From a virus: a DNA stretch of 30,372 nt. Shown piece by piece: positions 3,001-22,888 of the stretch; within the stretch, counting starts at the first letter, position 1, and every line of letters starts with the position of its first letter. Below the pieces are notes generated by a model. It did not search any database. It saw only the letters and a list, made by a program, of their open reading frames with translations, and was not told the origin of the DNA. The translations under genes were made by a program, and so were the position numbers. The DNA lies in the IMG/VR virus record IMGVR_UViG_3300030382_003518, positions 1 to 30,372 of that record; one strand, given 5' to 3'.

Positions 3001-5567
3001 GGCCAATTTTTTTCTATTACAGCTTCAACAGCAGCAAATCTATCCTCTTGTGTTGATTGCGGGGAATTTATTATATCAACCAATGATTTATTATCTATTT
3101 CAGCATCTAAAAATTGTTGTGTCCTTGGACCAGTTTTAGAAAACTTTGTTTCTTCTACCTCACCTTCTTTTTTACCTGTATCTATACGTTTACCACCAGT
3201 AAGTTCATCTTCAGCTCCAGATGCAAACTCAAGCATTCTTTCACTAAGTTTACCTTCTTTAACGTTTTGACTATATTCTTTCATAAAGTTAAAAGCGTCT
3301 TCACCAGTTTCTATACTTAAATTTTTATAGGGTGTACTTTCATTAAAGAACCCAGCTACTTTATTTTTTATACCATCAAAAAACCCTTTACTATTTTTGT
3401 ATGTTATATTATTATCTTCGTCTTCTATAATGTCAGATAATGCAGTAAACCACTCGTCAGTAGTTGACATTTGTTCTTCTGACATTCTATAGCTTTTTTT
3501 AAGCCTTTGCTCTATTAATTTAACAATATTTTTTCCAAGATTTTTTTCTACACTTAATTTAAAATCAGAAATTAACTTTTTAACTCTAGTTCCACCATCT
3601 TTATTATCTTGTAACTTTAGATTAGTTAAAGCACCTCTCATTACAGCATGTAATACTTCGTGTGAACCAGCATTTAACGCTCCATATTTAAAAGCAAACT
3701 CTTCATTGATCATTATGGTTTGTTTACCATTTTCATCCATAAAAATATTTGCATCAGCTCGATCCGCACTATCTGCTATTCTTTGCGCCTCTGCGTTAAT
3801 TTGTTCATCAGTCATCTTAGATAAATCAATCTCAACACCATCAAACGTGTATTTCCCTTGCTCCATCATCCTTTCAATCAAAGTATTTACATATTCACTA
3901 TTTTCTTTAAAACTTTGAAAAGGATTAAAACCCATTTGCTTACTAGCAATTTTAGCAAAAGATTTTGTTCTTTCTAACCAAACACTTCTAACTTCTTGCG
4001 CGGTTTTCTTTCTAGCTTGAACTTCCGTATCAGCAATATCAACACCTTTATACTTATTTATAACTCCAGCAATTTCAACTTCTATGCTCTTTAGAGTAAT
4101 GTCTGCATCGGCAACCTCAAATATACCTTTCTTTTTAGTATCAGCTTCAGCTTTCATTCTTCTCTTCTCTAATTCAACCAACTTCTTTCTATCAGTTTTA
4201 TCAACCCTTTCATCTATTTGAGTTTCAAAAACAGCTTCTTGTTGTTTTTGATCTACAAGGTTTTTAAGGTTTTTATCGCCTACTATATCGAATTGAACTT
4301 TAGCTAAGTTTTCAGGTTTCATATTGTTAACCTTATTTATAACTTCTTTCCTAGTTCTTTTCTCACCGTTTATTTTATATTCTTTTTTAGCAAGAATATC
4401 AGCGACATTTACAACACCTTTAGCCTCAGCAACGCCTTCCATTAAAACTTCAGCAATATCAAACTCTTGTCCAGCAGCAACTTGTCCTAAAGCCTCACCA
4501 CTGGCACCACCTGTCATTTCAACACCAGTTACTTGTCTAGCTATTTTACCTTTACCCGCTCCTTTTGCTAATAGTTTAGTACCAATACCTCTTGATAAAC
4601 CAACAGTTACACCTTCTACGGCTCCAATTGTAACTCCTCTAGCTAAAGCCCTATCTTTTATATCTTCAAAAAGTTCCTCGTTTTCTAATATAGCTCTAAT
4701 ATTTTCTTTATTAAAATCTTTACCACCTAGTTCAGTTTTTAACAACTCTGTTAATGTTAAAGCTGTTTCCATAGAACCTACTAAACCAGCTACAGCACCA
4801 CCAATAGCTCCAGTTGTTGCGCCAACAAATCCACCTATAGCCGCTCCTACCGGTCCACCAATCGCGGTAGCGCCAGCACCAGCTAAAGCACCAGCACCAG
4901 CACCAGCTCCAGTTGTAGCAATTGTAATACCAGCGGCTTCTTCAGAATCAAAAAACGTCCTAGCCATTGCGGCGGCAGAACTAACTATAACTTGAGGTAT
5001 AACTTGACCTCTTGTCATAACCATACCTTTCATAAAGCCCCAAACACCACCACCAGCTTCGTTTTTTATTTCTTCATATTCACGCATTTCATCTGAAGCA
5101 CCAGTTTTATCCAAAGCATCACTAACTTCGATGTATCTTCTTAGTTCTTCGTCTGATATGTTTTTACCCTTCTTATAAACATCAAAAGCTTCATCTACAG
5201 TTGCTCCTTGGGCTATACCTTGTTCACCCGCTCTCCATAAATCTCCTAAATAATCTGTTGCTATATTCTTACCTAAAGTTCTTTCGATCCAAGTATCTTC
5301 TTCTTTAGAACCTTCTACATCAACTTGTGGTAATTCTATTGGACCCACATCTACTTCGTCATCTGTTGTTTTTCCTAAATTAAATTCAGGAAACTTATTG
5401 TTTACAATGTTGTAATCATAGTTACGACTCTCAGCAGTAGCTACGTAATCTTTTAAAAGCTGCGTATCATATTGATCTAGTTCTGGAAATTTAGATGATA
5501 TAATATCCCAGTCATAGTTATAATGCTGTGCAGTTGCAACTAAATCTTTTAGTAACTGTTCGTTCAT
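1..5567 (-). CDS. Giant polyvalent internal virion/ejection protein (partial, C-terminus beyond left edge)
   Basis: The frame is open from ATG 5567 through the left edge, giving at least 1855 codons. Visible in order are: an imperfect 32-residue tandem repeat (residues 4-62); a glycine-zipper hydrophobic stretch (about 212-270) that could enter a membrane; an HEVLH zinc-protease-type motif (H636, E637, H640) with a possible third ligand at E705 in DEWFTAL; a long helical middle; a HAD-like DFDDT motif (D1626, D1628); and a Walker A GGPGSGKST (about 1660-1668) with VDGTGAS near 1740 and an Arg-rich segment near 1770-1795, as in zeta-toxin/AAA_33-type kinases. Five [FY]-S-[KR]-[ST] tags occur from residue 809 on. 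It follows two probable internal virion genes, 11 nt after the last one, so I infer a T7 gp16-like protein carried in the capsid and delivered into the host. The enzyme activities are inferred from motifs. The substrates are unknown. Confidence 0.8.
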   Translation of the reverse strand, partial: MNEQLLKDLVATAQHYNYDWDIISSKFPELDQYDTQLLKDYVATAESRNYDYNIVNNKFPEFNLGKTTDDEVDVGPIELPQVDVEGSKEEDTWIERTLGKNIATDYLGDLWRAGEQGIAQGATVDEAFDVYKKGKNISDEELRRYIEVSDALDKTGASDEMREYEEIKNEAGGGVWGFMKGMVMTRGQVIPQVIVSSAAAMARTFFDSEEAAGITIATTGAGAGAGALAGAGATAIGGPVGAAIGGFVGATTGAIGGAVAGLVGSMETALTLTELLKTELGGKDFNKENIRAILENEELFEDIKDRALARGVTIGAVEGVTVGLSRGIGTKLLAKGAGKGKIARQVTGVEMTGGASGEALGQVAAGQEFDIAEVLMEGVAEAKGVVNVADILAKKEYKINGEKRTRKEVINKVNNMKPENLAKVQFDIVGDKNLKNLVDQKQQEAVFETQIDERVDKTDRKKLVELEKRRMKAEADTKKKGIFEVADADITLKSIEVEIAGVINKYKGVDIADTEVQARKKTAQEVRSVWLERTKSFAKIASKQMGFNPFQSFKENSEYVNTLIERMMEQGKYTFDGVEIDLSKMTDEQINAEAQRIADSADRADANIFMDENGKQTIMINEEFAFKYGALNAGSHEVLHAVMRGALTNLKLQDNKDGGTRVKKLISDFKLSVEKNLGKNIVKLIEQRLKKSYRMSEEQMSTTDEWFTALSDIIEDEDNNITYKNSKGFFDGIKNKVAGFFNESTPYKNLSIETGEDAFNFMKEYSQNVKEGKLSERMLEFASGAEDELTGGKRIDTGKKEGEVEETKFSKTGPRTQQFLDAEIDNKSLVDIINSPQSTQEDRFAAVEAVIEKNWPVISNALKFNPTGNIPMQAVKEAISEQILGIFPQVTLQDGTKISRKTPLFNTYNKETEVTTFLSATLKPRQPEIYARAKAIGGIEQMGVDISEAKDIKAPEPTKPKPSKKARKLKSLSDVNLDNKDVISQTIYNKVVNILEQNPKNLTKQLNALIEKEFMKVIKEGMGKVTKTVEGFASKEYKAYHALNYENHIKALDVKTIKKNYNTLFDIKKVDRESDKRVNPKTGKVTYPGIGIYDIKTNKAKFTKHFIDGGYTTLLDRQKKLAQLIAASLTKDAVNKFKIENSNDIDVIVEAEIDSFLDTMEKQKGENRTFDTVKYSRSKVKKGMGLLIHEGVGDSINSDTAKKIIYKYKLDPSVVKKAKEVIDKSKAQFSKSIETEFAKETTDTGIVKQIANAIKRVWSASVPKEETYKETYDPKTGETVGKNVEIRMLERLWNEKLGITWGERMAKPLNNFLDKNPQYYRLLRELLTGGDRAVFMNVDRFEQFVPETKKIKNTDQVLNKRVKIHKSTKDGKRLLNPKKWNFEKTNEKDKFKNFVQFFKDLSVWLNTDQNKVHTWIMEELVIHSSVDQSNFFRKAATPYAYQIYEDRKPIMDQAVVEEHTPINEIVKIIMDAAIRGNVKEVELVLKTLLGQASILKTNDPNGNLQGSLGVDFYEKVLPKIVNGILKLKDSHAGIYRLMKHGVDPFTIELYESGNNIAEEFSVSHLSPSEARQDIINQFEEGKVRYSKTNATKSPLSKNIHKRKTISSAVNFSRSSKNKTQGMSAWDFDDTVARTKSGVMYTMPNPEGTPQPGRKVIFMAGGPGSGKSTVIKGLDLENQGFKIVNQDISLEWLMKNHGLPTDMKDFTPKQHSKFSSLGWEARKIAKRKQSKFQGKGDGIIVDGTGASLNVMKKQVQEFKDKGYDVQMVFVETSLETALERNRVRKERSLRDGIVKRTHESVQNNKEGFRELFGDNFAEVKTDNFKIGDAMPLKLINKLDAYTKGYIKGRLSAEEFA
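4758..4934 (-). other. Glycine-zipper hydrophobic segment in giant protein
   Basis: Residues about 212-270 alternate Gly/Ala with Ile/Val/Leu (for example GGPVGAAIGGFVGATTGAIG), the pattern of glycine-zipper membrane helices. There are at least two potential helical hairpins. In an ejected protein this could insert into the host envelope. That role is inferred. Confidence 0.6.
5382..5558 (-). repeat. Two-copy 32-residue tandem repeat at N-terminus of giant protein
   Basis: Residues 4-30 and 36-62 of the giant protein align without gaps at a 32-residue (96 nt) offset. They share LLKD.VATA near the front, NYD in the middle and KFPE at the end. The unit looks like a small helical module. Its position at the extreme N-terminus suggests a docking or packaging tag, which is an inference. 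Confidence 0.8.
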
Positions 5568-7693: not shown

Positions 7694-8476
7694 TCACTCA
7701 CCACCGGTTGGTTTGTTTAACATATCCTCCCATGGTAACTTCGACGCGATATCAGTGAAACTCTGCATATTTTGCATTTGCATTTGCATAGCTGCTGAAT
7801 TTGCCGCCATTTGATTTGAATATGCTGATTGTACGCCTGCATTAGCGCCAGCTAAACTACCATATTGAATACCTAATAAAGTTGATTGTCTACTCATTTC
7901 AGCCTCTTGAACCATTGCATCTCCACCTCGTATAGCCATATCAGCTGCGGAAGCACCTTTTGCTATCAATTCCTCTCTAGCCGCTTCAAACTGTTGTACT
8001 GACATAGCTCCTTTTGCTGTTAATTGTTGGTTTATCGCTTCTTGTTTTGCTAGATCAACTGAAACTTGTCTAGCTTGTAGTTGGCCTTGACTAGCTAATG
8101 CTTGTGCTAAACCAGCAATACCACTACCACCAGCAGCACCTCGCATTTCTTGCATTATGTTAGCTCTTTGCTGTGCTCCTTGCTCCATTTGGAAATCAGC
8201 AGCACCAGTACTAACTTTTAAATCTTCATATACATTTTCAAAATCAGTTTGTAATCCTTCATACGCATTTTCCACACCCGCGTAAGGATTTTCAAATTTA
8301 AATTGTCTATAAATATCTTTTTGCTTATCAAGTTTTGCTTGTTGTTCTTTTTGAAAATCTAATTGCTTTTGCAACATAGCATTACTTGCTCTCTGACTTT
8401 TCTTTGCGTTTTTACTTCCTACCCACCCCGAAACTAATGTTGCTCCTGCCATTATTACTGCCGCTGTTGCGCTCAT
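7694..8476 (-). CDS. Small internal virion protein (T7 gp14-like)
   Basis: This 260-aa protein begins with a short hydrophobic segment (about residues 4-20, AAVIMAGATLVSGWVGS), followed by a Lys/Gln-rich coiled region (about 22-60), a NPYAGVENAYE stretch, an AAGGSGIAGLAQALA segment (about 113-128) and Ala/Gln/Met-rich helices to the end. Ala/Gln-rich helical proteins with an N-terminal hydrophobic segment at this locus are typical phage internal virion or DNA-ejection proteins, of which T7 gp14 is the model. The start ATG lies one base after the stop of the upstream GNAT-cupin gene (TAA-T-ATG), so translation is probably coupled. No enzymatic motif is visible. The role is inferred from family resemblance and gene order. 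Confidence 0.65.
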   Translation of the reverse strand: MSATAAVIMAGATLVSGWVGSKNAKKSQRASNAMLQKQLDFQKEQQAKLDKQKDIYRQFKFENPYAGVENAYEGLQTDFENVYEDLKVSTGAADFQMEQGAQQRANIMQEMRGAAGGSGIAGLAQALASQGQLQARQVSVDLAKQEAINQQLTAKGAMSVQQFEAAREELIAKGASAADMAIRGGDAMVQEAEMSRQSTLLGIQYGSLAGANAGVQSAYSNQMAANSAAMQMQMQNMQSFTDIASKLPWEDMLNKPTGGE

Positions 8477-8477
8477 A

Positions 8478-9584
8478 TTATTCCTGTTTTAAATTAATTT
8501 TTTTCAATATTCCCAAGGCATCACACCCAGGTGGTAAATCTTCATATTTAGTACATACAACCTCGTCTTCAGCGTCTTCTATTGTGGTGTTTTCAGTCGT
8601 ATGTACCGTTATAAATATACATTCTTCATGTGTATATATAGCTCTTTTTGTGCCTGGTTTTGTAATACCTTGATAAGGAGCTTTTATACGTTGTATACCT
8701 TCCTCTGACAATATTGACATCTCTCCTTTCATTAAAAAAAATGGATGTTCTTTTTTATGTATTTTAGTTACAATAAGTTCATTAGCTGGATTATATATTT
8801 CTCTGATATAACAACCTCCAGCAAAAGTATGTTTAACTGGATTTGTTTTCAGCATCATTTCACCAGTCATACCGCCACTCGAGTTTACGATATCTTCTTC
8901 TAAATCAATTATTTTTTCCCTAAATTTATTACGCCTGCGTATTTCTTCACCAATTTCCCAAGCTTCATCAAAGTTATAACTATGCTTTAGCCCAAGTTGT
9001 TCAGTTATAGCTACAAACTGTTCTTTACTCTGCTCCTTTGTCAAAGCTGAAGACTCTACTTGTTTATCTATTTTTTGTATCCCTTTATCTATTTCTTCTT
9101 TATCCATTGCCACATAATCTCCAGTACCTAGTTTTGATGAAACTATATTTGCAGCGCTTGTTTTGTTTACAAGATTAGGCGATGTACTAAATATACGTGC
9201 GAAATTTCTTTCTGAGGTGTTGTATCCAAGCGCTTTACATCTTTGTATAATTCCTTCGTTCTCAGTCATAGCCCAAATCTCTAAACAACCAACTTCGTTT
9301 GCCATTTGTTCACATGCTCGTATTAGCATTAATATAATATCAAACCTATCTTTTGAAACGTACTTTGGATCTGTTATTAGATTATCTATATAACCAACCT
9401 TTGAATTTGTTAAATATAAATAAGCTGCTGCTATAGGTTTATCTTTTTCAATAATAATTCCACCTAAACCATCCATAGGTAAAATATCCTTTTCTAAAGG
9501 CGCAAAACCCTGTTCATCCCACCATCTATCTATGTATTCGTAATCGCTTAATTCGATTTTACGAATATTTATTTTATTATCCAT
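8478..9584 (-). CDS. GNAT-like acetyltransferase / cupin fusion protein
   Basis: This 368-aa protein has two recognisable parts. Residues 1-135 resemble the GNAT fold: a beta-rich GGIIIEKDKPIAAAYLY, then YIDNLITDP, a long helix, and a C-terminal CKALGY motif. The acetyl-CoA loop (R/QxxGxG/A) is not evident, so catalysis is doubtful. A charged helical linker spans about 150-235. Residues about 250-350 look like a cupin barrel, with H276, H280, E288 and H319 or H328 as candidate metal ligands around EHPFFLMKGE and KPGTKRAIYTHEE. I recall such cupins as stand-alone or fused genes in phage structural operons, with unknown function. The gene sits between tail-type and ejection genes, so it may be a virion part or assembly factor. 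An alternative is an enzyme acting on host or virion surface groups. Confidence 0.7.
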   Translation of the reverse strand: MDNKINIRKIELSDYEYIDRWWDEQGFAPLEKDILPMDGLGGIIIEKDKPIAAAYLYLTNSKVGYIDNLITDPKYVSKDRFDIILMLIRACEQMANEVGCLEIWAMTENEGIIQRCKALGYNTSERNFARIFSTSPNLVNKTSAANIVSSKLGTGDYVAMDKEEIDKGIQKIDKQVESSALTKEQSKEQFVAITEQLGLKHSYNFDEAWEIGEEIRRRNKFREKIIDLEEDIVNSSGGMTGEMMLKTNPVKHTFAGGCYIREIYNPANELIVTKIHKKEHPFFLMKGEMSILSEEGIQRIKAPYQGITKPGTKRAIYTHEECIFITVHTTENTTIEDAEDEVVCTKYEDLPPGCDALGILKKINLKQE

Positions 9585-9640: not shown

Positions 9641-11503
9641 TTACGATGCAGTAAGAAACTTATTTACATCAAAGTGTAATGTAAAATCCGTGTCATCTAC
9701 GTTTACAAATTCTATATTACCTGTTATCGTTGCTGTTCTACTTGTGCCTCCAACTGTTAATACTGTATTTTGTGGTAATACTTGCGACGTACCAATAGTC
9801 CAATCACCAGCGCCAGTCGCGCCACCACCATCTATTATTATTGGTAATGCATATGGAGTAAAAGTTAATGTAACTTCATCAAGAATTGAAACTGCTTCTG
9901 AAACAGAAAATTCTTTCACATTATCCTTATTTGGATTTAATGCCGCAACTGTAACGGTACTACTAGTAGGTATACCATCACCTTCAACCCTGTCACCAAC
10001 AACCATTTTCGTAGCAACATTATTATCCATAACTATTTCAGTTACATTAGAAACTTCTCCATCTACAGTATCTGTACTACGCGCTAAAGTTGTATCTATA
10101 CCAATACCACTAATTGTAGATATATTATTAATAACACCTTCTCTATTTGCAACGGGTATTGTTGTGTCAGAAGAATCTGTTGTTACAGTTGTTGTAGGTG
10201 CAGTTAATTCTACTTTTAAATCTGTTAATTTTATTGTAGCATTATGTATTGTTTTTATTGTGTCTGGACCGTAAGCATAAAAATAAGTAGTTTGACCAGC
10301 TAAATCGTTTTCTACTTGCCCATTGAAAGTAATATAACCTAATTGTTGTGTTACTAAACCATTTGTAATTGTTGGTTTATAACCTAAAGGATCTAAAGCT
10401 GGAATACTAACATTAGTAACTATATTTGTTACTTCTTCAATACTACCATCTTCATTGTGAATTTCCGTTGTATATGTTGTTGTGTCTTTATATGGGCCAA
10501 TTGTAGATGGTGTAATAGCATTATCTGAATCCACCACCCCCATACCAGGTAATAATTTATGTATACTACTACCACCATTTATATCCCATCTATAGTAATA
10601 AGGTGGAGTAAAGGTTAACGTAACGCCGTCGCCAATAGTAACAGCTTCTGAAACAGAAAATTCTTTTACATTATCTCCATCTGGATCCAATGCCGCAACT
10701 GTAACAGTGGCACTACTAGAAACACCGGTACCAGTGATTCTATCACCTACTTTCATTTTATCTGCAACATTAGTATCCATTACTATTTTAGTTGCACTAG
10801 AAACTGCCCCATCTACAGTGTCTGTATTACGAGCTGTTCCAGCCCAAATATCTTCACCAGGTATTGTAACTCCACTACCCATTGTAACGGTGGCATATGC
10901 AGTTAAATCACTTATTGTTGGTTGCCTATTTATTTGTAGTACTTTTGTTGCTGCAACTGTAACTCCAACTGAAAATGCTGTTTTACCAACAGCGCTCCCT
11001 CTACCCACAGTGATAGTATCTGAAGAAACAGCCATACTAACAAAATTACCAGTACTATGGTGTGTTCCGCTTGGTGATATAGCACTCAATGTAATCGTAA
11101 CATCCGTATATTGGTATATTATTTTCTTTAATAAATTAGAATTAGAACCCGTAGATGAATTTATATCTATACTACCATCACTAAATCTAACCTCAGAATA
11201 TTCAGTGTGAACAGTATCATGCATAGATTCTGCAAAAACATAAATATTATAATGATCATCATCTGTAATCGTTGGAAAAGTAATAAATCCATTATAAACG
11301 CCATTATCTACTCTTCTATTTTTTAATCTTTTATGTGTTGCTGAAAAAGTCTTAGTTGAAAAATTATAATATTCGTTAAGTTCATTTGTAACTTCTAAAG
11401 AAAATATAGCACCATTATCTCCAATCACTTGAAAAGTTCTTATGTTGCTTTCCGCAGCCATGCTATTCAAATCTATATTAAAATTTCTAATTACTTTTGC
11501 CAT
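9641..11503 (-). CDS. Beta-rich tail or virion surface protein with internal duplication
   Basis: This 620-aa protein is rich in Thr, Val, Ser, Asp and Ile, with almost no Cys, as expected for beta-sandwich virion proteins. Residues 1-170 form a distinct N-terminal region that looks like a tail or baseplate-type structural domain (for example GAIFSLEV, FITFPTI, DGSIDINSSTGSNSNLLKK). A module at residues 224-300 is repeated at 474-550, exactly 250 residues apart. Each copy starts with TDTVDG and ends in EFSVSEAV...VTLTFTP. The gene follows the nozzle genes by 8 bases and shares their strand, so it is probably a tail-tip, fibre or adhesin-like component. I cannot name a precise family. Confidence 0.6.
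   Translation of the reverse strand: MAKVIRNFNIDLNSMAAESNIRTFQVIGDNGAIFSLEVTNELNEYYNFSTKTFSATHKRLKNRRVDNGVYNGFITFPTITDDDHYNIYVFAESMHDTVHTEYSEVRFSDGSIDINSSTGSNSNLLKKIIYQYTDVTITLSAISPSGTHHSTGNFVSMAVSSDTITVGRGSAVGKTAFSVGVTVAATKVLQINRQPTISDLTAYATVTMGSGVTIPGEDIWAGTARNTDTVDGAVSSATKIVMDTNVADKMKVGDRITGTGVSSSATVTVAALDPDGDNVKEFSVSEAVTIGDGVTLTFTPPYYYRWDINGGSSIHKLLPGMGVVDSDNAITPSTIGPYKDTTTYTTEIHNEDGSIEEVTNIVTNVSIPALDPLGYKPTITNGLVTQQLGYITFNGQVENDLAGQTTYFYAYGPDTIKTIHNATIKLTDLKVELTAPTTTVTTDSSDTTIPVANREGVINNISTISGIGIDTTLARSTDTVDGEVSNVTEIVMDNNVATKMVVGDRVEGDGIPTSSTVTVAALNPNKDNVKEFSVSEAVSILDEVTLTFTPYALPIIIDGGGATGAGDWTIGTSQVLPQNTVLTVGGTSRTATITGNIEFVNVDDTDFTLHFDVNKFLTAS
9854..10084 (-). repeat. Intragenic duplicated module, copy 2
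   Basis: This encodes residues 474-550 of the 620-aa protein. It is similar in both DNA and protein to 10604-10834, including a shared block around gcttctgaaacagaaaattc on the plus strand. The copies are offset by 750 bp. Confidence 0.9.
10604..10834 (-). repeat. Intragenic duplicated module, copy 1
   Basis: This encodes residues 224-300 of the 620-aa protein, the partner of 9854-10084. The copies differ mainly at third codon positions and in a few surface-type residues (for example VSSSATVTVAALDPDGDNV against IPTSSTVTVAALNPNKDNV), which suggests an older duplication under purifying selection. Confidence 0.9.
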
Positions 11504-11511
11504 ATTATAAT

Positions 11512-14500
11512 TTATTTACTACTTTCTGTTATCTCAGAACTAAGTGAGAATATTTCAGCTTTATATTTTGAGTTGTTTTCAAGTTTTACACCTGCATAGT
11601 ATCCTAATAAACTAGATGTGTTTATTGCTTGATTTTTAGAGAATAGAATGTAGTCGTTTGCGGATGGTGGGGTACCATTTGTGGTATCTATAGTTATAGT
11701 ATTATTAGTTAAACTCGTTACAACACCGGCTTTTTGTATATTATCGGATTCTAATCTTGTGAAACCAAAAACTTGTCCAGTCATAATTTCTGTGACACTG
11801 AGTTGTATTGTCCCATCATTTGAATCTGTACTAAATATGCTCAACTCATTACCATCAGAAATAAATTCTTCCGTATAAACACCGTTACCTGTTAATATTG
11901 CATTACTACTTACTCCACCGTTATTTGTAACACCTATTTCTCCACTTCCAAGGTAATTCGAGATTTCTAAAGAAAGTATATATTTTTTACCAGATATAAG
12001 ATTCTCACTGGGAATTATGTTAAATAGAGTTGCAACATTTCCTATAGTAAAAGGCACCGTAAAAATAACTCCTACTTCACCCCATGAATAGGTAGGTATT
12101 GCATTCCAAGGCCCATTAAAACTTACCGTATTTTCATCTATCATTGTAAATGGTCCTATACCAACAGTTCTAGGCCCTGGTGGAGATCCCGTATTCGGAT
12201 TTGATAATTGTATTTCAAGATTCCCACTCATATCTATTAGATCCAATCCTAACACTTCCGACGGTTTTTCAAAATATATAGTATCACCAATTTGTAATGA
12301 AGAATTTATATTGTCAGTGAAAGTTATTTGATGCTCTGATGGAGCTGGCGGAAGTGGTGTTAAAGTTGTTGCAAAAATAGTAAACGTTGTGTTTGGCGGT
12401 ATTTGTGTAGTTGTCGGATATGATAACGTTATCATAGCGGGCATTGCAAATGTAGCGGGAATAAAAGACGCTACAGTGGTATTAGTTGGAATAAGTCCAG
12501 CGCTGTCAATCACATTCATCCCTACGTGACTAGCATCAAAATTAATTGGGGGATTTAAAAAGACAGTATTACCCACTACTGGCTGATATCCAATAGTGGT
12601 AACAACTACTCCTGTAGGAATGGGTGCTACTGTTGGTGATAATATAATCGTGCTTTCAATAATACCAACTCCCTGTATATCAAATGATCCAAAATCTGTT
12701 GTTTCACTAATCTCAGAATCTATACCTTTAATATAATTAAACCATTTACCTTCTTTTTCTATGAACTCAGACAAGTTACCCTTTTGTTTATCTGTTTCAA
12801 TACCACTAACATACCAACCATCTTTAGGCATAGAATTAAAATGATTAACAGTTTTCTCTTGTTCTTCTGTAGTTATAACATCTCCAACTTCAAAATCACC
12901 TCCTACATATCCAGTTAATTTTCTACCATGAGAATAAGTTCCACTCCCAGGATTCCCTGGGTCATTCCACACTCGCACTAAACCTGTCCAGATTAAGATA
13001 TTATTTCTATATTGTTTTATGGGGATTGAAGAGTTACCTTTAACGCCAAGACCACCAGCTCCAGTTGGTTCAAGAGTAACTTTAGCTATATCTACTAAAG
13101 TGTCAAACTCTTCATCTTTCCAATAGAAAAACTTACCATCTGGGTGTGTGCTACCCGCCGGATTGCTGTAAACGATACCATTAACTGTTATATTTTTAAT
13201 ACCTTCAACTCTAGATTGACTACCTTCGTAATCTAATGTATGGAAAGATTTTATACTGCTAGGTATATCGTTTAATATAACATTTACACTAGAATTAGTT
13301 GCTGTATTATAAAAAGTATTTCTTTTACTACCTTGTATGTGGTGTTGCCAAAGTTTACCATTTTTTATAGTATAATAATCGTTAGCACAACTAATAGCAT
13401 TTTCAGGAAAAAACGATTTAAAACTAACCCAACCTTTTGTATCTTCTCTAAAAGAAATTGTTTTAGGTATGGCAGAATGAATAGTTAAATTATATTCATC
13501 TTGTCTATCGTCATAACTACCAATTATTTTTGGTTCAACTTTTACTTCCTCTAACACTATATTTGCAATAGATACAATACCACTATATAACCAACTGCTA
13601 TTAGAATAACCATTATTATCTGGTATACCATTACTATTAGTATCTGGCCAACCATCAGCTATTCTTTGTGCGTTAACATAGTTCTGTACTGTATCTTGAG
13701 TTCCACCAGGTGGAGTATAAAGACCAGCTGGAGTATTAACTTGATATTGTAATAGTTGAAAATCAGTTCTGTTTGCTACCCATGTAACATTGACATGTTC
13801 GCCATTAGTTTTTCCTACTGCTCCAAATCCTCCAGATATCCACCCACCACCAGGAATCGAGTTGACTACTGTTATACTACTATTACCTACTCCAGTCCCT
13901 TGATGCTGTAATCCACTATGCTCTATAACATCAAATTGTAATTGATATTTTTTACCAATCTCTAAAATATTTAACTTTCTAAGTCTCGCGACCTTACCAT
14001 ATCTACTATCGTGAATATCATTATTATAATATCCTAGAGTTGCTACGCCATTTGCTACATAAGAATTTCCACTAGCAGGGATATCCCAATTATCATTTGA
14101 AGAAAGAATATCTTCACCTAATAAATTTACTTTACTAGTAGAAAGATTATCCCTAAACCAATCTTTCATACCATGCATTGAAATAGGTGTTAACCCATCT
14201 TTTGATAACCTCATTACCGAACCTCTTTGTTTATCTGTAAAATAAGATCTATACGCTTCAGAAACAAATGATTCTGGATTTTTAGATATTCCGTATTCAC
14301 CTACAAATGGTACTGCTTGTCCTAACACACGGTTTGTTGATGTTAATTGTGGATTTCCATCTGCGTTGTATACAGCATCTTTACTTGCTAAAATCTTTAA
14401 AACCTTATCTTCACAAAGAGTGACTAAATCAGTATCTCTTGTATGTAGTTTTTGTATACTACCATACGTGGGATTTATATCTTTTGTTATTTTTTCAGCT

Positions 14501-14919
14501 GCAATAAATTGATTTAAATTATTTACACCGCTAGTACTATTGTATAATCCAGAATATATTAAACCATATTTTCTATGTTCTTCTTTGTAATCTTCAAATA
14601 TGGTTGATACTTTAACTCCTGGGGTTAGTTGTGTTGAGTTAAAAGTATCGGTAATTCTATTTGACTCCACGCCATTACCAAATGAATAACAGTTATGCCA
14701 ATTTAAAACTTTTTTTGTACTATAATTATTAAATATATCTAAACCAATAGTATCACTATAATGACTTGTAGAGGTATTGTCTGGATTTGTAGATACACCT
14801 GCGTTTGTTTCTCGTATTCTAACATAAACAACTTGACCATCTCCACCCTCTTCTATTGAGGGATGGGTGATTTTTAACCAATCACCAGCAAAAATTAATA
14901 TTTGATCAATATCTGGCAT
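11512..14919 (-). CDS. Tail stabilisation/nozzle protein, second (C-terminal) part
   Basis: This 1135-aa protein carries the C-terminal signature of a phage stabilisation/tail nozzle family: NCYSFGNGVESNRI (about 76-89), GLIYSGLYNS, ITKDINPTYGSIQKLH, VLGQAVPFVGEYGISKNPES (about 198-217), YFTDKQRG, then after an insertion IGSYDDRQDEYNLTIH (about 466-481), GWVSFKSFFPE, and KEGKWFNYIKG near 722-732. Residues about 264-462 interrupt this core with a jelly-roll-like segment that includes a calcium-loop-like DTNSNGIPD (426-434). Residues about 750-1110 form a variable beta-rich tail, and the protein closes with GYYAGVKLENNSKYKAEIFS. The start is one base after the stop of the 2208-aa gene, in another frame. 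The core is usually expected downstream of the N-terminal part found in that neighbour, so I infer one ancestral protein split into two genes. Confidence 0.7.
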   Translation of the reverse strand: MPDIDQILIFAGDWLKITHPSIEEGGDGQVVYVRIRETNAGVSTNPDNTSTSHYSDTIGLDIFNNYSTKKVLNWHNCYSFGNGVESNRITDTFNSTQLTPGVKVSTIFEDYKEEHRKYGLIYSGLYNSTSGVNNLNQFIAAEKITKDINPTYGSIQKLHTRDTDLVTLCEDKVLKILASKDAVYNADGNPQLTSTNRVLGQAVPFVGEYGISKNPESFVSEAYRSYFTDKQRGSVMRLSKDGLTPISMHGMKDWFRDNLSTSKVNLLGEDILSSNDNWDIPASGNSYVANGVATLGYYNNDIHDSRYGKVARLRKLNILEIGKKYQLQFDVIEHSGLQHQGTGVGNSSITVVNSIPGGGWISGGFGAVGKTNGEHVNVTWVANRTDFQLLQYQVNTPAGLYTPPGGTQDTVQNYVNAQRIADGWPDTNSNGIPDNNGYSNSSWLYSGIVSIANIVLEEVKVEPKIIGSYDDRQDEYNLTIHSAIPKTISFREDTKGWVSFKSFFPENAISCANDYYTIKNGKLWQHHIQGSKRNTFYNTATNSSVNVILNDIPSSIKSFHTLDYEGSQSRVEGIKNITVNGIVYSNPAGSTHPDGKFFYWKDEEFDTLVDIAKVTLEPTGAGGLGVKGNSSIPIKQYRNNILIWTGLVRVWNDPGNPGSGTYSHGRKLTGYVGGDFEVGDVITTEEQEKTVNHFNSMPKDGWYVSGIETDKQKGNLSEFIEKEGKWFNYIKGIDSEISETTDFGSFDIQGVGIIESTIILSPTVAPIPTGVVVTTIGYQPVVGNTVFLNPPINFDASHVGMNVIDSAGLIPTNTTVASFIPATFAMPAMITLSYPTTTQIPPNTTFTIFATTLTPLPPAPSEHQITFTDNINSSLQIGDTIYFEKPSEVLGLDLIDMSGNLEIQLSNPNTGSPPGPRTVGIGPFTMIDENTVSFNGPWNAIPTYSWGEVGVIFTVPFTIGNVATLFNIIPSENLISGKKYILSLEISNYLGSGEIGVTNNGGVSSNAILTGNGVYTEEFISDGNELSIFSTDSNDGTIQLSVTEIMTGQVFGFTRLESDNIQKAGVVTSLTNNTITIDTTNGTPPSANDYILFSKNQAINTSSLLGYYAGVKLENNSKYKAEIFSLSSEITESSK

Positions 14920-14920
14920 A

Positions 14921-17900
14921 TTATATGTTTATCTTATTTTTAATAATTTCTCTATTTCCTATATAACGACATATTGGAACGCCTATTGCCATTATTAATT
15001 TACCTAATATATTACCATTGTAATTATGTGGCTCTTCTCTATGTGCCATTTCATAAGCCCACGCCACTCCTATTGGTTTTACTAGATGAGTAATTATCTT
15101 AGATTTTCTCATTGCGTTAACAACATGTCCAGACCACTTCCAATAACCTATCTTAGTTGCTATATCCATGTTATTATCTGAATGTTGATAATCTAATTCT
15201 AGCACTTCTCTAGGTAAAAGCCCCTGTTCACATAATTCTGTACATATTATTTTACCACCACCACCAGTACCACCACCACCACCAGTACCACCAGTACCAC
15301 CACTACCACCACCACCAGTACCACCACTACCACCAGTACCACCACTACCACCAGTACCAGTACCACCAGTACCACCAGTGCCACCAGTACCACCAGTGCC
15401 ACCAGTTATAATGGTAGGTACCCATGGTGGCGCGTTACCTGGTGTCCATCCAAAAGACTGTAACCATGCTATATAAACTTCTGATGCTGTTTCTTCTTCT
15501 ACTTGTATATTTTTTGATAAAACAATTTCTTCAGTTTCAGGATTTACTTGTACTACTTTTGTTCCTTGTGGAATAGAATTACTTCCCTCATGTTCTACAA
15601 TAGAATTAATAGGAATTAGTTCGAGTATATTTTCTTTTGTTAACTCTGTATAAATAGGCATAGATCCTGTCGCTTCGTAATACACGTCTAAATCTGCATT
15701 TTCTTTTGGTTTAGTTTCCCAAACAGCTGGATTAGCTGGTAATATTTCTTCTTCTGAACGATTTGATTTTTCTTCCACCCAGTCCCAAGTATATCCTACA
15801 GCATCTGTACCAGTTTTTGTACCACTAATCCCTTTACCATCTCTAAAAAAGTTTAAATTTTTAGCAGAATTAGGACTTAATCCATTCATTGGATATTGAT
15901 AAAATCTTAGTACGTCACCGGTAGTTATATTGCTTGGGGTACCAGTACCAGTACCACTCCAATCATCAGAACCATCATATGTTTTAAAATATATAGTATA
16001 ATCAGAAGTATTTTTAGATATTTTTGATACAATAGCAGGTGGATTCATATCAGTAAAATTATCACCTCCAGCATTATCATATTTTTTTAATACCATACCT
16101 ACAGAAAGTTGGTCTGTACTAGAACTATTTGTTCCATTACCAGTTATAGAATCCACTGTTACATAATTAGTGTTTCCACCACCACTTGTAGCAACTGTTA
16201 ACTCTAAATATTTAGTACCAGTAATCGAGGTGGGTGTTCCAGTTTGTATTGGATTCCAATAATCATTAAAAGCCTTATCAACCCTTATTCTCCAATTTTT
16301 AGTATAATTACTAGGTCTTAAATAGCTACAAGTAGCAAACGTAATACTATCCTCCCCAGCATCTATTTCTGTTTCTAGATGAGATTTATCAACAACTGTT
16401 TCTCCTATAACATTAGATGAAAGACCTCTTGTATTATCATATAGACCACTTGGTTTACCCATAAGAGCTTTTGCGTGAAAAGGAAATATTTGATCAGGAT
16501 CTATTCCATTGCTTCCTATAGGTTTGTTAGCATCATAATAACTACTTCCCCAGCCACTAGCCTTACCAAAATATCCTTCCCTTAAACTTTCGTATCTAAC
16601 TCTTAAAAATATATCAACATCACGAACAGTATATATAGTTTCAGTTGGATCTTCTTTAAATCTAAATTGACTACCTATTGCAATTTGTTTTATGAAGTCC
16701 GCTTCTGATTCAGAGTAATTATAATTTTCTCCAGCTAAATCATAAAAACTTGGATCTGATGTAGCAAATTTTCTACCATCCCAATCCCCACTAATCACAT
16801 CACTTGGTGTAATCCATCTCACAGGTTGAATCCCACCAAAAGAAAGTTCGATTAACGAACTACCTTCTTCTCCACTTGCCCAAGATCTTAACCCCATAGA
16901 GGTCCAACTCGATCTTGAAGGCCAAGTATCCCAACCTACATCATTTCCTGAGATAGTGCTATGGTTAAAATTACCAACATTTATAGCTTCGTCAATAAAC
17001 CAAACATCTTGAAAACTTTGATCTTCAGCAGCGGTATCATCAACAATATCTAGTTTGTCAACTCTATTTTTAATAGCATCATTCCCTAAATATACGTTTA
17101 TGCCTCTAAAATAAGCATCATAATCTCTCCAAACATCTGGATCACGTAATAAATCGTAAACTATATCGTGGCGCTGCTGAGATCTTCTTTTTTTATTATT
17201 TAAGGTACCAAGATTTTGTGTAAATTCACTTGTTGCATCATAGTAAAAATTCCATTTATGTCTAGGGTCGTTTTTATCACTTGATATATTATCATTTAAT
17301 CCAACAGCATTTGACACACTTTGTATATCATAAAATGCTTGAGTAGGATTTGCTTGAGTTTCATCATAATGTTTTTCAATACGATTAGAATCACTATGTG
17401 TTCTCAAAGAATATATTTTACGAGATGCATTCGTACTTTTGTATTCTTTTTTAGTATTATCAACTTTATCTTTTAAAGCTCTTGAAAAAATATCATCATT
17501 ATATATTTTTACAAAAAACCTACCCTCAAATTTATGAGAGGCAGATTTATCTAAAGCAGTTCTATATATATTTAAATATGTGTTGGCTATTATTTTTGTA
17601 ACATTTACACCACTAGGATCGTCAGTAAAAGAATTTATTTCATTAGTAAATGGTTTTTCTAATGTGAATCTCCATCTATCATCATCTTCGGCAGAAGTTA
17701 GTTCATCCGCAAACAACCGTACAATTTTATATCTATCAGAAACTCTATTTGTAGTAGTGTTACTTAAAGATATATGGTATTCTACATCACTGTCTTTACC
17801 AAAATCTTCGTGTAAGTTTGCGTAGGAAGCGCTTTTTATTCGGTTAAAATTAATAGAAAAATCAATATCACCTTCAGTTGGAAGATCAGCGGTGGTAAAA

Positions 17901-20900
17901 AGTCTACTGCCACTATCAGTGGAGTGTTTTTTAGATGCTATTAAGGTTTCCTTTCGTTTTATAAAATCCGGAGCTTCATTTTTTATATCTATTATTTTAT
18001 ATTGAGCTTTTTCTTGTATTACATTACTAAGTTTACCTGTTTTTGGATCTTTAATAACGCTACCAACTCCTTTTTTTAATATCAAAAAATCATCTATATC
18101 TACTTTGTTTCTATCTGTCGATGGAAATGCTAACCAAATATTATCGTCTTCTGCGTCGTAATACCTATCCATAGCTAAATTATAATATTCCCCACCATTA
18201 TCTTTTATGAAAAATTTAAAATATTTCATATTCACCGGGTGTCCTTCGTTGATAATTCGAACTGATAATTGATTTATTCCAGCAGAATTACTTTTATTTA
18301 CTAATGTTGTTGCTGTTTTATTTGTTATAATAGGGGTTTCTCTACCATATTCATCTGAAAAAACAACTCCAACTTGATAATCTCTAAGCGATTTTATAGA
18401 TTTTTTACCAATTCTAGATTTATTTTCTATAGGAACAAGTTGGGGTTCTATTTCTATATCATAATCTTTACTATTTATATTATCTATTAAATTATAGTTT
18501 TGTAAATAATTACCATAAACAATTCTATTACCTACAACTTCTTGTCCTAATGCTTTTTTAGGTACATTATCCCATGGACGTAATAATTGATTAGATGGAA
18601 CAATACCGTTTTTAATTGTTTCATGTGTTATTTTATATGATGCCCACGCTTGATCAACATTTTTTATAGTATCAACAATGTAAATATTTGGGGAATTTTC
18701 TTCTTTATATAATATATCAACCCCTGATACATCTTGTGGTATATTTCGATTATAATCTTTTATTGTTAAAGATTTTATATTATTAGTCATACCTAAATTA
18801 TAACTTTTTTTAGGGTGGTAGTCAAATCCACCAGGTACAAATACTACTTCTGAAAATGGAGAAAAAGCAGAATACTCTCCATCTTCATATTTATATCGGT
18901 AAGCAAATCTAGGAAATTTATATTCAAATAATTTTTCTTCTTCATCTAATAAATCTATCGCATAATTTAAACTTACGTCAGTATCGAGAACACTTGGGGG
19001 AGTACCATCTATAGAATCTATTTTTATTTCAGTTCTCGCTACAGTTTCATCAATTTCTTCCACTGATACGTTACTTATTTTTCCATTAAAACCAGGAGTT
19101 ATCACTTCCCTAATTTCAACCTTTATATCTCCACTTGGGCCTCGTGTAGAACTTATATTATTCGCAGCCCAAGCATATAAATCTATCTGACCACTACCAG
19201 TTGCTGTAAACGTACAGGTTGTTTGTCCTCCAACTCCACTCCAATTATCACTACCCGTTGCTTGAACTGCTTTCACTCCGCTTGAAGTGGTGTAATTAGT
19301 AATGCGTGGTGCGGTCACCCCTGTGTAAGGAACTCCTTGACTTGAACTAACACCTATTCTTTGATTACCACTACCCATAAAACTCATGTTAGACACGGTA
19401 AATGTTAATTCATATTCAGTACCGCTAACCAAATTATAACCATCGTTTTGAACATCGTATAGATAAATAGTTGTTCCGGTGGTGTGAATGCTGTCATCAA
19501 TATGCTGGTTATGAAATATTACTCGTTCAGCGTTTACTACTTCCCATACATTCCACGTTATCACCTGACCCGAAGATGAATGTGCGGGTCCCATACCCGC
19601 GGGCGCGCCGGCATAGTTAGCGTGGATTGCTGTAGGATTCCAAAAATCATCAATACCAATAAAGTTTATTCCTCTGGTAGCACCTCCAGATGTAGATGCA
19701 AATAATATTGAGTTTAAATATAAAGCGTGATTCCAAGTTGACGGACCCTTTGGTATCGGGAGTGAACCAGTTGCATTATAAGTATCATCAAACACAAGTT
19801 CATGTTCAAAATTGCCTGGAGAATCATGCTGACCCAAGGTATAGTAATTACCACTTTGAGCAGGACTAGCCATGCTATTAGAATCGAATAATTGGACTAG
19901 AACTTCACCAGTCATACTATCGTTATCTGGTGGTTCAACACTATATCTTATTTTATAATGTCCTCCTACAACTATATCACGAAGATCATTATTATTAAAT
20001 ACTTTCTTATTAATACTAGCATTACTCCCATCACACGTTAATGTACCCGCAGTTTGATCCCAAGTCCAATTAGACTGAACACCCCAATGATCCGGCGCGC
20101 TACCACTTCCCTCTGACATGTCACCATTATCAGTCAAAAAGAAATTAGCATTTGTAAACCTATTACCTTGCCAATTTGTGATCGTCCCTTTTATTCTGTA
20201 ATTTGCAATCGGAATTGCAGGCGAGTTACCATCAAAATCAAATTCTTTTAATACTACTTTATCACCAGCTTTCCATTCTAAAGTAAAATTATTATTGTTG
20301 TTTATATCTGTTTCTATTATAGTACTAAAAGTATCTCCAACATCTATAAAATTAAAATCATGTATTCGTCCTATAGACGAATTTATAAAAGAATTTGGGT
20401 GATCAATATTATCACTGATTTTAATTATACCAGCATAAGTTTTTGTAACATCTCTAAATGTTTGGTATTGTATAGTTGGGGGATATTTAGGGGATTTTCT
20501 AATAACAGTAGTGTGCTCTTCTTTAACACCTTCCCTATCCGCAATAAGAATATTTTGCGCTTTATTAACTATGTAAGTATTTTGATTACCTTGTGGGTGT
20601 GTACCTTGTATGCTTCGTGGAATATTTATTTTTTTTGGTTCAGAGTTATTATCTGTCCAAAATAATAGATCATCAATTATATTGATTCCAGTAATTAAAT
20701 TATTAGGATCAAGTTTTAAAACAGAATTATTATTATCAACAAACACAGGGGTAACTGTATTTTTCTTTGTGTCATACTGAATAATACGACTACTATCAAC
20801 ACTTTTAACAGATATATTATCAATAGTACAGTTTAACTTGTTACTACTAGTAGTATCCATTCTGTTTTGGAAATAAATATGATTTGGAATATAAGGTGTT

Positions 20901-21547
20901 TTGGAAGCTGTAGAATAAGAAGTGGTAAAATCACTAGCATCTCCAAATTCTTCACCAACGCGAATTACCCATACCCATGGTTCACCACCGTTATCACCTG
21001 TGGCAGCGTAGGTTTGTTGTGGTCTAGTCCATCCACCGTTCTCATCAACAAGAACTGGACTTAAGTCACCAGTACCACTATAATTACTAATTTCAACACT
21101 AACAATATAAGTTCTACCAACACCTATAAACATATTTTGCTTTAACGAATCCCATTTCAATACGTCTGTAGCTGTAACATTATCAGTGCCGTAATTCCAA
21201 CCTCCAGTTCCATCTAATGGATTACCATCATGCGTCCAATCGTCTGCATTACCAGTAAATCCACCATTTGTTATATGTTCTTTATTATTGTTGCTTAAAA
21301 CAAACCAATATAATTTATCATTTTTTTCATCAGAAATACTACCAACACAAGTTGAATCATCACCAATAAATCCTTGCCCAGGAACTATAGAATTACCCAA
21401 TATATTTTGAACAGTACCAACATCAGCGCCTTCTGAGGTTGACACTTGTATATTCATCGCATCCCTATATTCTCCATTTGGAATAAGTCTCTCGTCGAGA
21501 TCCTTATTCATCTTACCACCGGTAAAATTATGCTTAATCTCTGGCAT
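14921..21547 (-). CDS. Giant tail stabilisation/nozzle protein, first (N-terminal) part
   Basis: This 2208-aa protein is the largest complete gene in the window. Its N-terminus (FTGGKMNKDLDERLIPNGEY, then DAMNIQV and VGTVQNILGN) matches the start of phage stabilisation / tail-tubular-B-like proteins that form the nozzle below the portal. The conserved core resumes at about 865-1000 (YKFPRFAYRYKYEDGEYSAF, VDILYKEE) and runs to about 1960 (NPAVWETKPKENADLDVYYE). At least three jelly-roll or carbohydrate-binding-like segments lie within it (about 90-250, 458-640, 690-840). Residues about 2048-2098 are a Gly/Thr/Ser tract. They are followed by a 110-residue C-terminal domain starting ICTELCEQGLLPREV, of a kind I recall at the ends of other phage structural proteins but cannot name. 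The stop is one base before the next gene. Confidence 0.7.
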   Translation of the reverse strand: MPEIKHNFTGGKMNKDLDERLIPNGEYRDAMNIQVSTSEGADVGTVQNILGNSIVPGQGFIGDDSTCVGSISDEKNDKLYWFVLSNNNKEHITNGGFTGNADDWTHDGNPLDGTGGWNYGTDNVTATDVLKWDSLKQNMFIGVGRTYIVSVEISNYSGTGDLSPVLVDENGGWTRPQQTYAATGDNGGEPWVWVIRVGEEFGDASDFTTSYSTASKTPYIPNHIYFQNRMDTTSSNKLNCTIDNISVKSVDSSRIIQYDTKKNTVTPVFVDNNNSVLKLDPNNLITGINIIDDLLFWTDNNSEPKKINIPRSIQGTHPQGNQNTYIVNKAQNILIADREGVKEEHTTVIRKSPKYPPTIQYQTFRDVTKTYAGIIKISDNIDHPNSFINSSIGRIHDFNFIDVGDTFSTIIETDINNNNNFTLEWKAGDKVVLKEFDFDGNSPAIPIANYRIKGTITNWQGNRFTNANFFLTDNGDMSEGSGSAPDHWGVQSNWTWDQTAGTLTCDGSNASINKKVFNNNDLRDIVVGGHYKIRYSVEPPDNDSMTGEVLVQLFDSNSMASPAQSGNYYTLGQHDSPGNFEHELVFDDTYNATGSLPIPKGPSTWNHALYLNSILFASTSGGATRGINFIGIDDFWNPTAIHANYAGAPAGMGPAHSSSGQVITWNVWEVVNAERVIFHNQHIDDSIHTTGTTIYLYDVQNDGYNLVSGTEYELTFTVSNMSFMGSGNQRIGVSSSQGVPYTGVTAPRITNYTTSSGVKAVQATGSDNWSGVGGQTTCTFTATGSGQIDLYAWAANNISSTRGPSGDIKVEIREVITPGFNGKISNVSVEEIDETVARTEIKIDSIDGTPPSVLDTDVSLNYAIDLLDEEEKLFEYKFPRFAYRYKYEDGEYSAFSPFSEVVFVPGGFDYHPKKSYNLGMTNNIKSLTIKDYNRNIPQDVSGVDILYKEENSPNIYIVDTIKNVDQAWASYKITHETIKNGIVPSNQLLRPWDNVPKKALGQEVVGNRIVYGNYLQNYNLIDNINSKDYDIEIEPQLVPIENKSRIGKKSIKSLRDYQVGVVFSDEYGRETPIITNKTATTLVNKSNSAGINQLSVRIINEGHPVNMKYFKFFIKDNGGEYYNLAMDRYYDAEDDNIWLAFPSTDRNKVDIDDFLILKKGVGSVIKDPKTGKLSNVIQEKAQYKIIDIKNEAPDFIKRKETLIASKKHSTDSGSRLFTTADLPTEGDIDFSINFNRIKSASYANLHEDFGKDSDVEYHISLSNTTTNRVSDRYKIVRLFADELTSAEDDDRWRFTLEKPFTNEINSFTDDPSGVNVTKIIANTYLNIYRTALDKSASHKFEGRFFVKIYNDDIFSRALKDKVDNTKKEYKSTNASRKIYSLRTHSDSNRIEKHYDETQANPTQAFYDIQSVSNAVGLNDNISSDKNDPRHKWNFYYDATSEFTQNLGTLNNKKRRSQQRHDIVYDLLRDPDVWRDYDAYFRGINVYLGNDAIKNRVDKLDIVDDTAAEDQSFQDVWFIDEAINVGNFNHSTISGNDVGWDTWPSRSSWTSMGLRSWASGEEGSSLIELSFGGIQPVRWITPSDVISGDWDGRKFATSDPSFYDLAGENYNYSESEADFIKQIAIGSQFRFKEDPTETIYTVRDVDIFLRVRYESLREGYFGKASGWGSSYYDANKPIGSNGIDPDQIFPFHAKALMGKPSGLYDNTRGLSSNVIGETVVDKSHLETEIDAGEDSITFATCSYLRPSNYTKNWRIRVDKAFNDYWNPIQTGTPTSITGTKYLELTVATSGGGNTNYVTVDSITGNGTNSSSTDQLSVGMVLKKYDNAGGDNFTDMNPPAIVSKISKNTSDYTIYFKTYDGSDDWSGTGTGTPSNITTGDVLRFYQYPMNGLSPNSAKNLNFFRDGKGISGTKTGTDAVGYTWDWVEEKSNRSEEEILPANPAVWETKPKENADLDVYYEATGSMPIYTELTKENILELIPINSIVEHEGSNSIPQGTKVVQVNPETEEIVLSKNIQVEEETASEVYIAWLQSFGWTPGNAPPWVPTIITGGTGGTGGTGGTGGTGTGGSGGTGGSGGTGGGGSGGTGGTGGGGGTGGGGKIICTELCEQGLLPREVLELDYQHSDNNMDIATKIGYWKWSGHVVNAMRKSKIITHLVKPIGVAWAYEMAHREEPHNYNGNILGKLIMAIGVPICRYIGNREIIKNKINI
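15255..15406 (-). repeat. Low-complexity Gly/Thr/Ser codon tract
   Basis: About 150 bp are built almost entirely from acc, agt and a few act/gcc units on the plus strand, which read as GGT, ACT and AGT codons on the coding strand (about 50 residues, mostly Gly). Imperfect 9-bp units (accaccagt) recur many times. All units are multiples of three, so copy-number changes stay in frame. The tract links the nozzle core to a C-terminal domain. Confidence 0.95.
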
Positions 21548-21550
21548 GTA

Positions 21551-22888
21551 CTAGTGTTTTATATGTTTAGATTTACCTCGTAATATTTGAGTTAATTCTT
21601 CTAATTTGATATTTGATAATCTTAATTTTGCTGTTCTTATAGCTGCAAACTTATCTTTTTTATAGTATGCTAATTGTCTCCCGCCAACGTTGGCTTTAGC
21701 AGACATGATAGCACAAAGTATAGATTTATACATAGCTTCTTCTGCAAATTTGTGTACTTGCATTTCCGCGTCTGTACCTAAACCATCGCTTATATATTTT
21801 AATATAACTGTTTTTCCAGATATATTAGAACTAAAATGTATTTTTCCAGTATTTTGATCCATATAAAACGAGCCATTAGCTTGAGCATGTTGAGGATCTA
21901 ATCCATATCTTTCGCCTCCAGCTGGCCAATAAGTATCATCTTGATAATCGTCTTGATTTTCAGATGGAGTGTTACCTTTATAAGCGCTCCAAGTATCAGA
22001 TTCAGCTTGCGTTGCATACTCAAGATCATAACAACTTACATTATCTATTGTACCTACAAAATTAGATGGTGGAGTTGTCCCACCACCTCTGCTATCAAAG
22101 GTAAAATTCTTATTAGCGCTCCACATGTTAATAGCCCAAGTTGAGGTTGTTGAAGTATTTACTGTAATATCTTGAGTATAACTACCACTAGTATCTTGCT
22201 TCGTTCCACCTTTATATACTGCTTCGGTAGCAGTACTATCATCAGCTATAAGTATAATTTGAACCGAGCCCTGTACAACGGTAAGATCATAAGAAACTCT
22301 ATAGGTATGTCCAGCTAATATGCTAGTTGATGTTTGATAGATTTTTTTATACAATCCGGCATCAGCATCAACATGTCCGCTATTATTCCAAGTGTATGGC
22401 GCCGCACTAGGATTAGTTAAATTACTTGATGGATTATCACTAGATACTGTCCAATCACTTAAATCAGTATCAAATTCATTATTCGTTAAAATTTCAGATA
22501 TAACATCTCCAGAAGGGTCTTGATTTACTGCTATTGGATTAGATGTTTTAGAGGTGGGATAGATAATGTGCTCGATACCAGCGGAATCACTCCATACTAA
22601 TTTAACATAGTTAACATAATCTTGTGGTAAAGTTATTGTTAATGAAGCTGGTACTTCTAATTCTTGCGATTTAATAGATTTAAAAGTATCAAACGATAAT
22701 TCTTGCATAGCTCTCTGCGCATGGAAAGCTATATCAGCTCTTTTTATTTTAGATATTATTTTATCTTCACCAACGTAAGCAATTTGAAATTGAGTTATAA
22801 TATCATCTAGTGATGTAAATTGATAATTCCCCCAACTACTACTGTCAAGATAATAGTCTGTTTGTGTTATATTATTCAATAATCCCAT
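21551..22888 (-). CDS. Head-tail connector/ring protein with inserted jelly-roll domain
   Basis: This 445-aa protein has conserved flanks and an insertion. Residues 1-118 (YQFTSLDDIITQF, GEDKIISKIKRADIAFHAQR, ELSFDTFKSIKSQELEVP, LPQDYVNYVKLVW) and about 320-445 (FYMDQNTGKIHFSS, VILKYISDGL, EEAMYKSILCAIMSAKANV) read as a continuous connector-type structural protein. Residues about 130-290 form an unrelated segment beginning NNEFDTDLSDWTV and ending FVGTIDNVSCYDL, the outline of a carbohydrate-binding-like jelly roll. The gene begins 4 bases after the 246-aa connector and ends 3 bases before the nozzle gene, the place expected for a ring protein between portal and nozzle. The exact ring position is inferred. 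Confidence 0.65.
   Translation of the reverse strand: MGLLNNITQTDYYLDSSSWGNYQFTSLDDIITQFQIAYVGEDKIISKIKRADIAFHAQRAMQELSFDTFKSIKSQELEVPASLTITLPQDYVNYVKLVWSDSAGIEHIIYPTSKTSNPIAVNQDPSGDVISEILTNNEFDTDLSDWTVSSDNPSSNLTNPSAAPYTWNNSGHVDADAGLYKKIYQTSTSILAGHTYRVSYDLTVVQGSVQIILIADDSTATEAVYKGGTKQDTSGSYTQDITVNTSTTSTWAINMWSANKNFTFDSRGGGTTPPSNFVGTIDNVSCYDLEYATQAESDTWSAYKGNTPSENQDDYQDDTYWPAGGERYGLDPQHAQANGSFYMDQNTGKIHFSSNISGKTVILKYISDGLGTDAEMQVHKFAEEAMYKSILCAIMSAKANVGGRQLAYYKKDKFAAIRTAKLRLSNIKLEELTQILRGKSKHIKH

Follow-up and report, generated by a model that had tools for sequence, protein, structure and literature searches.

A tail muzzle (nozzle) protein that is a single chain in most of its relatives is probably made from two genes in one clade of marine phages. 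The window analysed here is the whole of IMG/VR virus record IMGVR_UViG_3300030382_003518 (30,372 nt), and the two genes lie next to each other on its minus strand: open reading frame (ORF) A, the N-terminal chain (2208 amino acids (aa), 14921-21547), and ORF B, the C-terminal chain (1135 aa, 11512-14919). A ends in a ‘cassette’ made up of a Gly-rich linker (15254-15406) and a C-terminal domain of 110 aa that begins KIICTELCEQGLL (14924-15253) and is called the ICTEL domain below. The locus records a genuine, lineage-specific fission of a known virion protein, followed by the C-terminal fusion of an uncharacterised mobile domain. It is likely that A and B together form a muzzle of the crassvirus/T7-nozzle kind in two chains, with the cassette added later. 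The muzzle, whose structure has been determined in a crassvirus, is thought to keep the tail closed until the phage infects. The literature searched contained no account of a split muzzle.

As judged from their sequences, A and B are the N- and C-terminal halves of one family, far beyond chance, since they match different parts of phrog_14478. Along this profile of length 1474, A has its best stretch at positions 186-356 (whole-protein E 1e-75) and B matches at 898-1096 (E 1.8e-53); B also matches phrog_18548 and, below the cut-off, Pfam PF25729 (crAss_MUZ_C). The best stretch of A is a conserved core block of the family (residues 869-1034, 18446-18943). Its first 80 residues (21308-21547), the start of the propeller by homology, carry the family N-terminal signature (GGKMNKDLDERLIPNGEYRDAMNIQ) and are 43-90% identical in 63 of 65 environmental relatives, which were collected by scanning viral contigs with the start of B. 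The most conserved block of the family is residues 72-262 of B (14134-14706), propeller blades by homology, with 64-85% identity in relatives. The original prediction for this DNA had already given A the N-terminal and B the C-terminal signature of one family, which agrees with the complementary profile matches, and the ORF coordinates, Gly tract, 110-residue domain and TAA-T-ATG junction that it described are all present.

The family is usually a single chain. In 56 of the 65 relatives, a single reading frame stays open across the site of the break and joins the A-type to the B-type segment, in proteins of up to 3765 aa; a few of the 56 are truncated by the end of their contig. Cultured members are also one chain, in Cellulophaga phage phi38:1 (1324 aa), Tenacibaculum phage Gundel_1 (1386 aa) and the Flavobacterium elemo phages (1493 aa), so the question raised earlier, whether the family is one chain elsewhere, can be answered with yes. 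A megablast search of the region against cultured phages gave no match. Two adjacent genes are present in eight of the 65 (L002, L003, L006, L008, L012, L017, L018 and L048), and a ninth split relative, L161, came from a later scan. The break site is identical in the window and these nine, and each of the ten split records has A and B side by side in an unchanged order. The remaining relative, L025, has a frame break at another site. This break and one in Maribacter phage Panino are frame shifts away from the split site and were set apart from the fission; in Panino (L069, about position 8260) the frame of the muzzle gene shifts amid the conserved motif KDTDL, so CDS0075 and CDS0074 may together represent one gene that a sequence error or a mutation has interrupted.

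In a maximum-likelihood tree of 57 members (598 conserved columns, rooted on the flavophages), the window and eight split relatives, L161 not being among those placed, form one clade with bootstrap 100, nested among one-chain members and with L002 and L003 as sisters of the window. Trees made separately from the A block and the B block also give a monophyletic split clade (bootstrap 100 and 95), and the two genes have therefore travelled together. Because the split clade is monophyletic and nested among one-chain members, the split is a single derived gene fission in one marine clade, of an ancestral one-chain gene such as the original prediction had proposed.

A known relative of the family is the muzzle of crAss001, gp44 (PDB 7QOL/7QOK; PF25729), a seven-bladed propeller with IG and crass domains inserted between its N- and C-terminal blades (PMC10172136). 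The C-terminal part of the family profile aligns with gp44 at 1053-1282 (27.6 bits), hhalign aligns it at 1055-1277, where the B core falls (probability 94, E 1.2e-7), and the later part of B residues 72-262 maps to gp44 from 1053-1055 onward. The family N-terminus, and with it the start of A, is collinear with gp44 4-154, weakly so (1.5-7.1 bits). Foldseek with a partial model through the break, of mean predicted local distance difference test score (pLDDT) 56.8, had the crAss001 muzzle, 7qol_P, as its top PDB match (E 9e-4), and VIA-align placed the modelled chain end on gp44 1213-1371 (Z 6.0, root mean square deviation 3.0 over 97 residues). Searches of PDB sequences by phmmer with A and B, and with profile A3, gave no muzzle match; the best phmmer matches of A fall on its low-complexity linker. 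B is homologous to the muzzles of Cellulophaga phage phi13:2, Gundel_1 and the elemo phages, and phi38:1 gp097 passes the PF25729 cut-off (67.9 versus 27 bits). In these one-chain flavophages (phi38:1 gp097, Gundel_1 gene 60 and the elemo phages) the family spans both A and B; they differ in having a single chain of about 1324-1493 aa. In crAss001, as here, the muzzle gene follows small tail protein genes. However, gp44 is one chain of 1371 aa as against 2208 + 1135 aa here. The two-chain form also has a beta-barrel insert where it is broken, and the first chain of the window ends in a helical domain.

Three other explanations of the two genes need to be weighed. An error of assembly or sequencing, or a programmed frameshift that joins A and B into one protein, might be suspected behind the break from the simple GGT repeats near the junction, from the +1 frame of B and from the single-base frame breaks that occur in the family (in Panino and probably in L025). 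However, the same break is found in nine other contigs, most of them from different metagenomes, with the B ATG at the same place and stops before the B start. Between A and B, five split records, including the window, have a spacer of 1 nt and the other five have spacers of 10, 12, 21, 23 and 34 nt; the frame that B takes with respect to A also varies among the records. The differing spacers and frames exclude a conserved frameshift, which was rejected on the variation in frame, and make an assembly error very unlikely, so that this explanation retains next to no probability. The cassette offers another cause: in the window it occurs together with the split and at the same spot, and the original prediction supposed that insertion of the linker, the ICTEL domain and a stop codon into a one-chain gene had split it. 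While the family assignment and the split itself have been borne out, this part of the prediction has not, and we regard it as highly improbable. Neither the Gly tract nor the ICTEL domain is present in any of the nine split relatives, whose A chains end in a short tail after the last shared strand; an unfiltered hidden Markov model (HMM) search of all frames in the first 65 relatives and the cultured loci collected by then found no carriers of the domain besides the window, HMO-2011 and a Synechococcus phage. The cassette-less relatives include the window’s sisters L002 and L003 and the branches L006, L008 and L012, so that a splitting cassette would need to have been lost cleanly, linker and domain together, in at least two branches. 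Since nine relatives share the split without the cassette, the split is the older of the two, and the window lineage most likely attached the cassette to a C-terminus that was already free. The one-chain muzzle offered no C-terminus at this site, and a C-terminus is where the ICTEL domain always sits. What the window lineage, and it alone, gained after the fission had made such an end is a mobile five-helix domain on a flexible Gly linker. The linker consists of GGT/ACT codon repeats (periods 9, 42 and 51 by Tandem Repeats Finder) and among the split records is found only in the window. The G+C content of the cassette (0.31) is close to that of A (0.33), and composition therefore shows no sign of recent import.

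The third possibility is that A and B no longer act together and that one has taken a separate role, B for example as nozzle and A as adhesin. Two genes are free to diverge in dosage and function, and A has large extra insert domains. Nevertheless, A keeps the family N-terminus and B the C-terminus, both with high identity to one-chain relatives, the gene order is kept in all ten split records, and B alone would be without the first blades; we consider separate roles improbable. Some points also weigh against a two-chain muzzle as such. It is predicted here from gene sequences; the low mean pLDDT of the model through the break (56.8) means that co-folding of the two chains rests on homology; the alignment of the A N-terminus to gp44 is weak; and among close relatives of the window none turned up that carries the cassette, which limits what can be said about how old the cassette is and how common in the population. 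The preferred reading remains that of one muzzle made from two chains, and homology gives good support to the proposal that the nozzle is built from both. The map onto gp44 gives A the first blades and B the last, and neither chain alone should therefore make a propeller. A would keep the first blades together with large distal domains, B would keep the last blades, and the products of the adjacent genes would meet to close one propeller per subunit in a two-chain muzzle ring at the tail tip, with six subunits if it is like that of crAss001; both the co-folding and this stoichiometry are predictions from homology.

One-chain relatives have a variable beta insert between ..WETEPKE..LDIYYEAS..PI and ..LNWHNCYSFGNGVESNRI; it is absent in short members, such as L051, L056 and Pachyviridae, and also in Gundel_1. 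On the A side of the break, alignment with these relatives identifies the conserved end of A, WETKPKEN..LDVYYEATGSMPI, with the first strands of the insert (..PQGTKVVQVNPETEEIVLSKNI) (15374-15682). On the B side, residues 1-70 of B (14710-14919) run from the second half of the insert (GDWLKITHP...) to the LNWHNCYSFGNGVESNRI block. In a model of the one-chain relative L007 through the break, the insert is confident (residues ~173-280, mostly pLDDT 78-92), although the model is poor overall, and the break matches the loop 224-237 between strand SLTLN and strand KIKIE. By this model the fission cut an accessory beta-barrel, inserted immediately ahead of the conserved LNWHNCYSFGNGVES block, in a loop that joins two of its strands. 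Each of the two chains of the split clade would then contribute strands to one small barrel, as modelled on L007, not on a split A/B pair. Comparison of the insert with PilZ-like barrels gave VIA-align Z scores of 7 at most, which was not taken as homology. A two-piece muzzle with its break inside a nested insert shows the modularity of the protein, and the split clade provides a natural two-chain system for testing assembly.

The muzzle is broken at a second place in some Cellulophaga phages. A gene of its own encodes the last conserved part (phrog_18548) in phi13:2, in its close relatives and in MW202828, which suggests that the muzzle fold tolerates breaking; Gundel_1 and the elemo phages keep this part in their one chain. 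As in the window, the muzzle of the phi13:2 group extends over two adjacent genes, gp120 and gp121 (241 aa, the separated last part), with extra sequence on the C-terminus of the first chain, in phi13:2 Ig/cadherin-like by eye. In contrast to the window, the break lies farther downstream and splits off the last conserved part only. The annotation of both phi13:2 proteins as structural derives from their similarity to proteins of phi8:3. The break coordinates are 11139-11143 in phi13:2 (L067, gp120|gp121) and 9707-10269 in MW202828 (L071), where the two muzzle parts are separated by a small gene that carries the annotation putative glycosidase.

The ICTEL domain is a mobile module that aquatic phages carry at the C-termini of proteins. 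When viral contigs were scanned with its sequence alone, no locus was confirmed, while a three-sequence profile found 169 loci there, from two patterns; a scan of genome contigs found two loci only, both in metagenome-assembled genomes. The domain is C-terminal in all 84 ORFs examined, 0-48 residues before the stop (10 residues in A), and is usually preceded by a stretch rich in Gly, Ser, Pro or Asp. Its carriers form 11 clusters, between which no similarity was detected beyond the domain itself, and include HMO-2011 gp49, a pelagiphage protein, a Synechococcus myovirus protein and DUF4815 proteins (phrog_358); BFVD also places the domain in phage proteins. Like A, HMO-2011 gp49 and the DUF4815 carriers end in the 110-aa five-helix domain, which a flexible linker often precedes, but the rest of each protein is unrelated to the muzzle. 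The invariant alignment columns C4, G11, D21, G36, Y37, W40, A66, A70 and G84 are all kept in the window. AlphaFold predicts five helices with mean pLDDT 96.8. Pfam and PHROGs searches gave the domain no name, and PDB-sequence profile search, Foldseek and VIA-align gave no convincing match to the fold, which does not prove that the fold is new. Loci L072, L073, L074 and L075-L154, with 14924-15253 of the window, make up what is apparently an unnamed and widespread aquatic-phage module.

From its constant C-terminal place, its flexible tether and its virion-region carriers, we infer that the ICTEL domain is probably a docking or surface-contact module. More tentatively, and with the odds somewhat against it, the split clade may have a tail gatekeeper of two polypeptides sharing one propeller, whose freed C-terminus serves as a docking point for a five-helix module with a common partner across phages. 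If so, the common partner would be a shared host surface structure or a virion component. The occurrence of a widespread and well defined module on 11 unrelated kinds of phage protein means that its function can now be asked about directly.

At the junction itself (14917-14923), where B is in the +1 frame relative to A, the sequence is ...AACATATAA-T-ATGCCAGAT, in which the stop of A occupies 14921-14923, a single base follows at 14920 and the start of B occupies 14917-14919; the B frame is open for just three codons upstream of its ATG. The arrangement TAA-T-ATG is not special in this genome: intergenic gaps in the window are 1-71 nt, and a second TAA-T-ATG junction of 1 nt is found at 8476/8478. 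An obvious Shine-Dalgarno-like start is seen in none of the window genes, whose starts are preceded by A/T-rich DNA. Putative termination-reinitiation at the A-B junction is plausible, but the idea in the original prediction that coupled translation keeps A and B at equal dosage gains no support from a junction that is ordinary for this genome and from a spacer that varies between 1 and 34 nt across the split clade.

Two further parts of B can be recognised. Residues 485-576 (13192-13467) are the last conserved propeller element, similar to phrog_18548 and crAss_MUZ_C, and correspond to the separate gene of phi13:2. Between these and the conserved block, alignment and comparison of B sequences show an extra insert at residues 265-480 (13480-14127), also begun in L002 and absent from L003 and L161. 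Similar inserts (..NGGFTGNADDW.., ..NWDIPASGNSYVANGVATLGYYN.., ..NNEFDTDLSDWTV..), carbohydrate-binding-like by eye, are seen at about 20800-21280, at 13480-14127 and at 22030-22460, that is in A, in B and in a 445-aa neighbour, as if one type of module had been inserted repeatedly.

The window contains a podovirus-like virion block on the minus strand, with a gene order resembling the phi38:1 layout and with small tail protein genes adjoining the muzzle genes. Directly upstream of A and B are genes for virion proteins (phrog_14543, phrog_13977), and farther upstream those for a portal (phrog_6547) and a capsid-like protein (phrog_13704). A giant open-ended ORF at 3-5567 (1855 aa), with a Zeta_toxin/AAA_33 P-loop kinase domain at 1651-1808, probably encodes a large virion protein. 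The 368-aa protein at 8478-9584 has a GNAT-like N-terminal part (below the Pfam cut-off) and a C-terminal part that matches the short tail fibre/adhesin PHROGs phrog_12032 and phrog_24280; the elemo phages likewise have GNAT-like genes immediately behind the muzzle gene, and MW202828 has them near it. Downstream of B, the 620-aa protein at 9641-11503 contains two repeat copies (VGDRITGTGVSSSATVTVAALDPDGDNVKEFSVSEAV.. and VGDRVEGDGIPTSSTVTVAALNPNKDNVKEFSVSEAV..).

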